A stretch of DNA of 34,962 nucleotides from Candidatus Chisholmbacteria bacterium. GTDB taxonomy: Bacteria; Patescibacteriota; Microgenomatia; UBA1400; JACOWY01. Below the pieces are notes generated by a model. It was not told the DNA's origin. It did no database searches and saw only the letters and a list, made by a program, of their open reading frames with translations. Each line of letters starts with the position of its first letter. Position 1 is the first letter of the stretch. Positions 4,892 to 22,619 of this stretch are shown one piece after another. The position numbers and the translations under genes are program-made. The stretch covers positions 1 through 34,962 of the forward strand of contig JACOWY010000024.1 of NCBI GenBank assembly GCA_016176555.1, read 5' to 3'.

Positions 4892-6268
4892 ATGGCGGTT
4901 TCCCCCCTTGATGATCGGTATGCCGAGAGCCTCCAAGAATTGGAGGCGGTGTTTTCCGAACGCCGATTGGTGAAGAATCGGGTAGAGGTGGAGGTGAGGT
5001 ACCTTTTGGCGTTACTTAGTGTCCGAGGGTTGTCCATTGAAAAAGTATCTCTAGCGCAACAGCGGAAGCTTTTGGGAATAGTGGAGAAGTTTAATGAACG
5101 TGATTTTGCCCGAGTCAAGGAGATTGAGAAAACGACGGATCACGATGTCAAGGCGGTGGAGTATTTTTTGCAAGCTAGGCTAAGACGACTGCGGTTGGAG
5201 GGATTGATCCCCTGGATTCATTTTGGTTTGACGAGTGAAGATACGAATAATTTGGCGCAGGCGCTGCAGTACCGTGAGGGATGTCGAGTGATTTTGCAAG
5301 CAGGCAAGAGTTTGCAAGAAGCTTTGGCCACGATCATTGCGGACAATGCGGGGGCAATGATGCTAGGGAGGACTCATGGGCAGCCGGCGGTGCCGACTAC
5401 TTTGGGCAAAGAGCTTTTGGTGCATACTTTAGGAATTCAAGAGTCACTGGAAAACATTAGGGATCATGAGCATCGGGGAAAACTGACGGGGTCGGTGGGG
5501 ACGCTGGCGGCACACACGCTGGCTTTTCCTAAAGTGAACTGGCTGGATTTTGCAGAAAAATTTGTGCGCAGTCTCGATTTGGAGCCGGAGATGGTGACGA
5601 CGCAGGTGTTGCCACCGCTATCGGTGATGCGCCTGTTTGCTACCTTAGAACAGCTGAGTTTATTGTTAGCCGCTTTAGCTAAAGATTTGTGGTGGTATGT
5701 GGCGTTTGGGTATTTGGCGCAAGCGAAGATTAAGGGGTTTGTGGGGTCGTCCACTATGCCGCAGAAGGTAAACCCGCGGATGTTTGAAAATGCCGAAGGA
5801 AACGCAGAGCTCTCGGCAGCCTTGTTTTCTTTTCTTTCCCGGCAGCTTTCTTATAGCCGGTTACAGCGGGATCTTTCGGGGAGTACGGTGAAGCGCAATG
5901 TAGGCGTGGCCTTTGGGCACCTTTATTTGGCGACAATGAGTATGAGTAAAGGTTTAGGCAGAGTGGCGGCAGATCCAGGGCGGATGAGAGAAGAGCTTGA
6001 GGCGCACCCGGAGGTGATAGCTGAAGGAGTGCAGACACTTTTGAGAGCAGTAGGAGATGAAAAGGCATATGAAAAAGTGAAAGAGGTTTTTCAGGCTGAT
6101 AATTTTTCTTTGGAAAAACTGAGGGATTGGGTTAAAAGAGAAAAAATATCGGCGCACGCAAAAGAAAGGCTTGCAAGCTTAGACGCAGCGGCGTATGGTG
6201 GGGTGGCTGAAAAGCTGACGAAGATGAAGCTGACTCAATTAAAAAAGCGAATTAATCGATTAGCGTAA
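4892..6268 (+). CDS. purB: Adenylosuccinate lyase
   Basis: SPLDDRYAE start, TSEDTNN, GRTHGQPAVPTTLGKE, GSSTMPQKVNP signature. Confidence 0.96.
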   Translation: MAVSPLDDRYAESLQELEAVFSERRLVKNRVEVEVRYLLALLSVRGLSIEKVSLAQQRKLLGIVEKFNERDFARVKEIEKTTDHDVKAVEYFLQARLRRLRLEGLIPWIHFGLTSEDTNNLAQALQYREGCRVILQAGKSLQEALATIIADNAGAMMLGRTHGQPAVPTTLGKELLVHTLGIQESLENIRDHEHRGKLTGSVGTLAAHTLAFPKVNWLDFAEKFVRSLDLEPEMVTTQVLPPLSVMRLFATLEQLSLLLAALAKDLWWYVAFGYLAQAKIKGFVGSSTMPQKVNPRMFENAEGNAELSAALFSFLSRQLSYSRLQRDLSGSTVKRNVGVAFGHLYLATMSMSKGLGRVAADPGRMREELEAHPEVIAEGVQTLLRAVGDEKAYEKVKEVFQADNFSLEKLRDWVKREKISAHAKERLASLDAAAYGGVAEKLTKMKLTQLKKRINRLA

Positions 6269-20367: not shown

Positions 20368-20826
20368 ATGACGACAATGGATGAGATTAAGAGACTACGC
20401 GAAAAGACAGGTGCTGGGGTGATGGATGCCAAGCGGGCACTTGAAGAAGCGAGTGGCGACATGACCAAGGCAGAAGAGATAATTCGGCAAAAAGGATTAG
20501 CCAAGGCGGAGAAGAAGGCAGGCCGGGAAACCAAAGAAGGTTTGGTCTACGCCTATGTCCACCACGACGGTAGAAGCGGAGCCATGGTGGAATTGCAGTG
20601 TGAGACGGATTTTGTGGCCCGCTCCGATGCGTTTAAAGATTTAGCCAAAGAGCTCGCCATGCAAGTGGTGAGCATGGAGCCTAAGGACACTGAGGAGTTT
20701 TTGGGGCAAGAGTATATTCGCGATCCGCAGCTGACGGTTAAAGATGTGATTGCTGCTGTGGTAGGTAAAGTTGGGGAGAATATCAAACTGAAGCGGTTTG
20801 TACGGTTGGGGTTGGGAGAAGAATAA
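20368..20826 (+). CDS. tsf: Elongation factor Ts (short form)
   Basis: IKRLREKTGAGVMDAKRALEE, KGLAKAEKKAGRETKEGLVY, ELQCETDFVARSDAFK. Confidence 0.95.
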   Translation: MTTMDEIKRLREKTGAGVMDAKRALEEASGDMTKAEEIIRQKGLAKAEKKAGRETKEGLVYAYVHHDGRSGAMVELQCETDFVARSDAFKDLAKELAMQVVSMEPKDTEEFLGQEYIRDPQLTVKDVIAAVVGKVGENIKLKRFVRLGLGEE

Positions 20827-20830
20827 GTTT

Positions 20831-21226
20831 TTACTGATTTTGCTGGTCAAGTAATTCTTTCAGCAGCCCGAGAAAGACGAGTCCATTAATTCTCTCAGCT
20901 CCCAGATCAATGTCAGTTATAAGAGCATCAAACTCTAAGGCTCCAGCGCCAACTTGTTTGAGGACGTCTTCGCAGTTTGAGAATGGGAGAACAGTTGCGC
21001 CTCGTGAGGAAAGAAAGTCTCCATGCAAATCAAGATTGTCTGGATCGTCGTCGATAAGGACTACAGTTTTTCCAACTAACGTTTCATACCACCCTATCAA
21101 GTCTTCAGTTTTTTGTTTCCTGAAGAAATGTTTAGCCCCGGCCCTAGTTGCTTTAGCTTGATAGTCAGCCTCTTCATCGGGGTAGACTGCGCTATAGACA
21201 GTAATATCTAGTTGTTCGAATTTCAT
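20831..21226 (-). CDS. Receiver (REC)-like protein with apparently permuted secondary-structure order
   Basis: N-terminal ITVYSAVYPDEEADYQAKATRAGAKHFFRK (REC second half) then KTVVLIDDDPDNLDLH...ALITDIDLG (REC first half); start could be TTG 21280. Confidence 0.7.
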   Translation of the reverse strand: MKFEQLDITVYSAVYPDEEADYQAKATRAGAKHFFRKQKTEDLIGWYETLVGKTVVLIDDDPDNLDLHGDFLSSRGATVLPFSNCEDVLKQVGAGALEFDALITDIDLGAERINGLVFLGLLKELLDQQNQ

Positions 21227-21293
21227 GGTAAACGCTGATTTTACACCAAAAGACTGTTTTCGCAAGATATATCGTTGCAAACGAAGCTAGAGG

Positions 21294-21875
21294 TTGTTAG
21301 ACTTCAGCCAGTATATGCAAGAGATTTTGGATAAGGCCAGGGGTGATTTTGAGAGGGTCATAGCCGTGCTCAATGATGACCTTTCCACGGTGAAGACGGG
21401 AAGAGCGAAGCCCTCACTCGTCGAAAAAGTGATGGTGGAGGCGTATGAAGGGCAGCCGCGAATGGCTTTAGTGGAACTGGCGACGATTTCCGCGCCTGAT
21501 CCACAGACACTCGTGATTCAGCCGTGGGATCGGTCGATTTTAGAAAAAATAGAAAAGGCCATCTCGATATCGAGTTTGCAGCTTCATCCCGTGGTTGATG
21601 GTGACATGGTGCGGATTAGTATTCCGCCTTTGACGGAGGAACGCAGAGTTGATTTGGTGAAGCTGACCAAACAAAAACTGGAAAGCGGGCGGGTGCTCTT
21701 GCGGCAAGCGCGGGGGGAGATTCGCGACGAGATTGAGGCCAAGAAAGGCCAGCCGGGGGTGTCGGAGGACGACATTCATGAAGGCTTTAAAAAGCTCGAT
21801 GAGCTGACAGATGAGTTTATGAAAAAGATTGAAGAGGTTGGGGTAGCGAAAGAAAAAGAGCTGATGACCATGTGA
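21294..21875 (+). CDS. frr: Ribosome recycling factor (start may be ATG 21315)
   Basis: LSTVKTGRAKPSLVEKV, ISAPDPQTLVIQPWD, IRISIPPLTEERR-like segment. Confidence 0.94.
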   Translation: MLDFSQYMQEILDKARGDFERVIAVLNDDLSTVKTGRAKPSLVEKVMVEAYEGQPRMALVELATISAPDPQTLVIQPWDRSILEKIEKAISISSLQLHPVVDGDMVRISIPPLTEERRVDLVKLTKQKLESGRVLLRQARGEIRDEIEAKKGQPGVSEDDIHEGFKKLDELTDEFMKKIEEVGVAKEKELMTM

Positions 21876-21894: not shown

Positions 21895-21907
21895 AAAGTT
21901 CAACTTT
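21895..21907. repeat. AAAGTTCAACTTT palindrome downstream of the RAYT-like gene
   Basis: Same 13-mer at 22652-22664 and 8444-8456. Confidence 0.8.
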
Positions 21908-22619
21908 ATTCGGATTGATCTATCAATTCTTTTGGATTTAATACTTCGTTAGTATTTGTTTGAGAGAGAACGAAGTTGCCATAGCTTTCAGGAGAGGAAA
22001 ATTCTCCCAAGATAGGTTGTGGGTTGCAAAAGTAGCTGGTATCGAAGGTAAATCCTGGTTTGAAAGTAAAGGGGGCGGGTTTACCGAGATACTGAGGATA
22101 GGTTGACCAGAGGTAGTTAACGAGATGAAGGGGGTTGATGTTTGTTTTGGAACTTTTGACTGGGTTGGAGTGGATATAGCCTGAGAGATGCAGGTTTTGC
22201 GGATCCGACATAATGATAACGGTTTTGACAGTAGAGGACATTAGGCGGCCTTCGCGCTGATGGCGAGTATTGAAGTATTTGGTGTAACTGCCTATAAGTC
22301 TTCTGAAGACATGAGTGTTGATGCGAGGGGCGGGGAGTTGAAGGTGAAGATGAAAGTGGTTGGGCATCAATATAGCGGACAGAATGTTGAGGATTGGTTT
22401 TCCGTACCGTTTATTTAGTGCCAGAAGGGTGAAATCCTCTGGTGTCAAATGGCCTTTATCAATTTGCTCAATGAAGACAGACATGCTTGGTGATTGGGGG
22501 CGGATAGAAAGGGTAAGAGCTAGCAAGAAGCGAACGCGGTCATGATCGTCGAGGAAAATCAAGCGTTTGTCCACCCCGCGGGCGTATGCATGTAGATAAT
22601 AATCGAGATGTTTAGACAT
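21906..22619 (-). CDS. REP-associated tyrosine transposase-like protein (Y1_Tnp / IS200-like fold)
   Basis: ILMPNHFHLHLQLP (HUH-type motif), IGSYTKYFNTRHQREGRLM (Tyr motif), SGYIHSNPVKS. Confidence 0.85.
   Translation of the reverse strand: MSKHLDYYLHAYARGVDKRLIFLDDHDRVRFLLALTLSIRPQSPSMSVFIEQIDKGHLTPEDFTLLALNKRYGKPILNILSAILMPNHFHLHLQLPAPRINTHVFRRLIGSYTKYFNTRHQREGRLMSSTVKTVIIMSDPQNLHLSGYIHSNPVKSSKTNINPLHLVNYLWSTYPQYLGKPAPFTFKPGFTFDTSYFCNPQPILGEFSSPESYGNFVLSQTNTNEVLNPKELIDQSE

Follow-up and report, generated by a model that had tools for sequence, protein, structure and literature searches.

A gene on the minus strand at positions 20831–21226 of the window (the whole 34,962-nucleotide stretch of Candidatus Chisholmbacteria DNA that was analysed) encodes what we judge, with a probability of roughly 75%, to be a free-standing single-domain response regulator of the CheY/Spo0F type whose receiver (REC) domain is naturally circularly permuted. 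The open reading frame is intact and comprises 131 codons plus a stop, with the ATG at 21226 and the stop at 20831–20833, and its translation is the one quoted in the original prediction; according to the ORF listing, an in-frame TTG at 21280 is the furthest-upstream possible start. Codon usage supports the frame, as it reaches 0.107 bits per codon, a value equalled in 3 of 2000 base shuffles, versus 0.023 or lower for the remaining five frames at this locus. Directly 5' of the ATG lies a promoter-like element, TTGCGA-16-TAAAAT (21238–21265, minus strand), recognized by consensus match only and so near the start codon that the transcript would be near-leaderless; consensus matching gives three promoter-like sites in the region versus 0.8 expected. 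The GC content of the gene is 43%, compared with an average of 49%.

The original prediction had described a protein that opens with the second half of a REC domain and continues with the first half, and both parts of this description hold. Residues 7–50 (21077–21208, minus strand) correspond to β4-α4-β5-α5, as indicated by the AlphaFold2 elements, a REC-HMM shuffle test and extension of the PF00072 match upon de-permutation, whereas residues 54–130 (20837–21067, minus strand) correspond to β1-α1-β2-α2-β3-α3, as indicated by PF00072, AlphaFold2 and Foldseek half-matches. The junction Val51-Gly52-Lys53 (21068–21076, minus strand), delimited by the AlphaFold2 boundaries, leads from α5 to β1 and replaces the usual chain ends. 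PF00072 matches residues 55–124 to profile positions 1–66 of 111 only (33.7 bits, E = 4e-8), which is above the curated cut-off of 30.2 bits; in the whole-genome scan the protein scored 29.4 bits, slightly below that cut-off. When the N-terminal ~50 residues are shifted to the C-terminal end (de-permutation), the protein gives a single continuous match to profile positions 1–103, and the score rises from 30.4 bits for the first half (N-half) of the domain alone to 37.5 bits and, with loose ends trimmed, to 44.6 bits. Furthermore, ordinary receivers from the phylum were used to build two REC HMMs, one in permuted and one in normal order; the window protein scored 33.0 bits with the former and 26.0 bits with the latter. 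The first ~50 residues alone matched the REC HMM at a level attained by 2 of 2000 shuffles. Judged from sequence alone, the signal of the second half (C-half) is real but weak, about 5 bits; order, residues and fold jointly support the assignment.

A search of the window protein against 53 relatives returned, besides itself, one match (E = 4.8e-5, residues 18–129). This homologue, designated G003:C21, is a protein of 123 residues with 33% identity from another family of the same taxonomic order, and its ATG is preceded by the Shine-Dalgarno-like sequence GGAAAGGAAGG. The succession LEIILMSS...AGSGVFLTKGD...LRGQRVVIVDDK...VVITDIQMPGMNG...LRELFPKQ displays the permuted order with similar end points. 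De-permutation raised its PF00072 score from 52.8 to 59.2 bits over profile positions 1–99, and in the shuffle test its N-terminal part was matched by 25 of 2000 shuffles. G003:C21 is the sole full-length relative found and it is a permuted protein of about 123 residues; the proposal that a search for orthologues would recover the same order is thereby borne out, and the competing expectation, that the orthologues would turn out to be tandem REC-REC proteins of which the window copy is merely a truncated version, is not what was observed.

All catalytic pieces of a receiver are kept in the permuted order, as had been claimed. On the minus strand, these are the conserved β4 Ser/Thr, Ser12 (21191–21193); the conserved β5 lysine, Lys37 (21116–21118); the acidic metal-binding pair at the end of β1, Asp59-Asp60 (21047–21052); and Asp105 (20912–20914), which ends β3 and is the residue predicted to be phosphorylated. 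All are invariant in both permuted proteins, and Lys37 and Asp105 are also invariant in every row of the permuted REC alignment. We take Ser12, Lys37, Asp59-Asp60 and Asp105 to be the equivalents of CheY Thr87, Lys109, Asp12-Asp13 and Asp57, respectively, and Phe34 to be the aromatic residue at the position of CheY Tyr106. The positions conserved between the window protein and its homologue include S12, A29, G30, F34, K37, D59, D60, T104, D105, N114 and G115. Thus, in both proteins the canonical receiver active site is divided between the swapped halves, and each half is present once, in swapped order and with the complete catalytic set, as in a natural circular permutation; the 131-residue frame holds one copy of each half rather than two complete receiver domains.

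The structures of both proteins were modeled with AlphaFold2 using two-row alignments of the window protein and its homologue. The window protein reached a pLDDT of 88.0 and a pTM of 0.84, and the homologue 87.0 and 0.82; two of the five models for each protein were confident, the remaining three being poorer. By DSSP, both models display the succession E-H-E-H-E-H-E-H-E-H, corresponding to β4-α4-β5-α5-β1-α1-β2-α2-β3-α3, and the canonical order running from β1-α1 to β5-α5 is absent from both. The five strands and five helices may adopt a CheY-like three-layer fold (sheet order 2-1-3-4-5), with packing judged from the pTM and the DSSP order. The two halves, whose failure to come together had been named as grounds for rejecting the idea, appear to form a single globular unit that is predicted with confidence. 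Foldseek, an order-preserving comparison, returned REC matches covering about half of each model, mostly over 69–100 alignment columns, as would be expected if a permutation prevented the other half from being aligned sequentially; against the PDB, it gave no match at E ≤ 0.001 for either model.

The break lies near the border of the two folding subdomains of CheY. Since receivers swap segments at this border (PMC6718144, PMC8498639), its position explains why a permutation would be tolerated, but for the same reason a domain-swapped dimer or oligomer, in which each REC unit is built from two chains and the halves of a single chain do not pack on each other, stays a live alternative. PhCheY swaps near the same border, at a β3-α3 hinge (PMC6718144), and the CRE1 receiver swaps at the β4/α4 border (PMC8498639), although in both the gene order is normal and the exchange occurs between chains rather than as a permutation within one; the junction of three residues is also short. 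We nevertheless regard such an assembly as very unlikely, given that the predicted monomers are compact and confident (pTM 0.84 and 0.82). Moreover, the chain ends of flavodoxin-like folds are near enough to be joined, and permuted flavodoxin-like lobes are stable (PMC9815098).

As to the origin of the two permuted proteins, a single inherited one is favoured by the sequence comparisons, although it is not proved. BLASTP aligns them over their whole length, junction included, with E = 1e-9, and the junction motif L-x-G-[KQ]-x-V-V is common to both. In a full-length tree of de-permuted sequences they form one clade (100/84), in which the branches are long, that of the window protein reaching 2.95 changes per column, and the N-half tree also unites them (85/85). 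By contrast, the C-half tree does not unite the pair, and half-by-half searches do not return the two permuted proteins as each other's closest relatives, which leaves the single origin unproven. These same results, together with the differing genomic places of the two genes and the abundance of tandem REC genes as raw material, could speak for two independent permutations at the same cut point, one per lineage. We consider this doubtful in view of the full-length alignment, the trees and the common junction; it would, in any case, be compatible with the proposed function.

The permuted arrangement is rare, and two members were found, although the order may hold further divergent ones. A profile of the two proteins, searched against overlapping genome samples (88 from the order, 374 from the class and 380 from the phylum), recovered no third member, only normal REC genes. 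A second profile, obtained by artificially permuting ordinary receivers, was searched against ~750 sampled class and phylum genomes and, among the matches listed, the window gene was the sole single frame of ~130 residues spanning the whole profile. The other listed full-length matches that were placed correspond to REC genes lying side by side with intervening stops (e.g. G233, G339, G201, G006, G479) or to frames of ~265 residues, the size of a fused REC-REC protein (G648, G560). Tandem REC units of this kind, whether as neighbouring genes or as fusions, are common in the phylum, and G006 belongs to the same order as the window genome. At three loci (L078, L082 and L083), a histidine-kinase gene is followed by two or three close-packed small REC genes, some of which share a frame with only a stop codon between them; L082 and L083 additionally carry a gene for a PilB-like ATPase. 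Among viral contigs, plasmids and phages, no relative of the permuted receiver was found. One contig match (L003) was dismissed as chance similarity to a Lon-like protease sequence, and the cRec domains of jumbo phages, described as divergent rather than permuted receivers (PMC7824862), were set aside, as none of the matches link to them.

Circular permutation is expected to arise through duplication followed by loss of the ends, and the tandem REC units are a likely source of it here. The front unit would probably have lost its first half and the rear unit its second half, leaving a permuted receiver. The same raw material could, however, have left behind a degenerating relic, derived from a REC-REC tandem (one protein or two genes) that lost both ends, and is functionless and only accidentally permuted; the long branch of the window protein, the under-average GC content and the small size and orphan status of the gene, at a locus that is variable, would fit such decay. 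We find this unlikely, as the frame is open with gene-like codon usage, all catalytic residues are retained at only 33% identity to the homologue, which occurs elsewhere with the same ends, and the fold is predicted with confidence. The existence of a functional, naturally permuted family of phosphorylatable switches, with chain ends at the α3-β4 border, is in our assessment probable.

The gene lies between tsf, which ends at 20826, and frr, in the orientation and with the neighbours originally reported. It had also been pointed out that pyrH often occupies this spot, but this proved irrelevant, and a replacement of pyrH was dropped as an explanation, since in relatives tsf and frr are either directly adjacent or separated by varied ORFs. 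The tsf-frr spacer (20827–21300 in the window; compared across L048–L077) is variable across the order, being empty or short in some genomes and elsewhere occupied by unrelated ORFs of either orientation (227–283 residues, for example); the permuted gene thus occupies a variable site rather than taking the place of pyrH. Next to frr, a minus-strand frame (21906–22619) that carries an HFHLHLQ motif resembles, by eye, REP-associated/IS200-type (Y1) transposases. Elsewhere in the window, ARAGORN reported a tRNA-Gly at 4919–5015 within a purB-like frame (4892–6268), probably a false positive. The gene for G003:C21 sits not near tsf but after a sugar-nucleotidyltransferase-like gene, in a neighbourhood unrelated to that of the window. 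No kinase was found among the ORFs of the window, and neither a kinase nor an effector lies beside either permuted gene; the permuted protein is an orphan. The window genome contains three HATPase-type loci, two of which are histidine kinases near ordinary REC genes: one (contig C40) with an OmpR-type regulator and an orphan REC, the other (contig C5) with a REC beside a PilB-like ATPase. The orphan REC protein of C40 (L038, minus strand, 1360–1965) has a basic C-terminal tail, KRRRRRSLF, and its gene, close to one for a PAS-containing histidine kinase, is convergent to that of the OmpR-type regulator.

Receivers rank with the most abundant signalling domains known; the window protein has an intact but rearranged REC catalytic domain. 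Compared with stand-alone receivers of PF00072 such as CheY, Spo0F and DivK, the window protein has the same ten elements, Asp pair, phospho-Asp, Ser/Thr and Lys, but places β4-α5 before β1-α3 and is without the Lys-Pro after β5. The best sequence match of its β1-α3 half, albeit weak (E ~0.01), is the receiver of RssB (PDB 3eod, 7l9c, 6z4c), which is similar throughout this half, including the LVGK lead into β1, but is ordered normally and followed by a C-terminal output domain. In the phylum, REC-REC tandems, as single proteins or as neighbouring genes (e.g. L031, L078, L082, L083), present the same β4-α5/β1-α3 succession across the domain border; they consist, however, of two complete domains (about 260 residues) or of separate genes with a stop between them. 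A natural circularly permuted receiver was not found in the open-access literature, and engineered permutants are known for another flavodoxin-like-derived protein (PMC9815098).

In the proposed arrangement, the chain would begin at β4 and finish after α3, the new ends representing the old α3-β4 loop, and the old C-terminus (α5) would be fused to the old N-terminus (β1) via about three residues. In the CheY fold, the α3-β4 loop is on the opposite side of the sheet from the active site. Asp105 may be phosphorylated in a Mg-dependent manner by a histidine kinase whose gene lies elsewhere in the genome, and switching may proceed via Ser12, Lys37 and Phe34. By analogy with CheY, Spo0F and DivK, the output would then be exerted through protein contacts, or the protein might serve as a phosphorelay step or sink.

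Because order-dependent profiles annotate permuted proteins as half-domains, others may be mis-filed as truncated. If the family is indeed functional, the covalent wiring of its α4-β5-α5 output face to the catalytic half would be unlike that of known response regulators. Moreover, if active, the window protein would provide a natural test of which aspects of REC allostery depend on chain connectivity, as well as of the view that CheY folds as two subdomains (PMC6718144).
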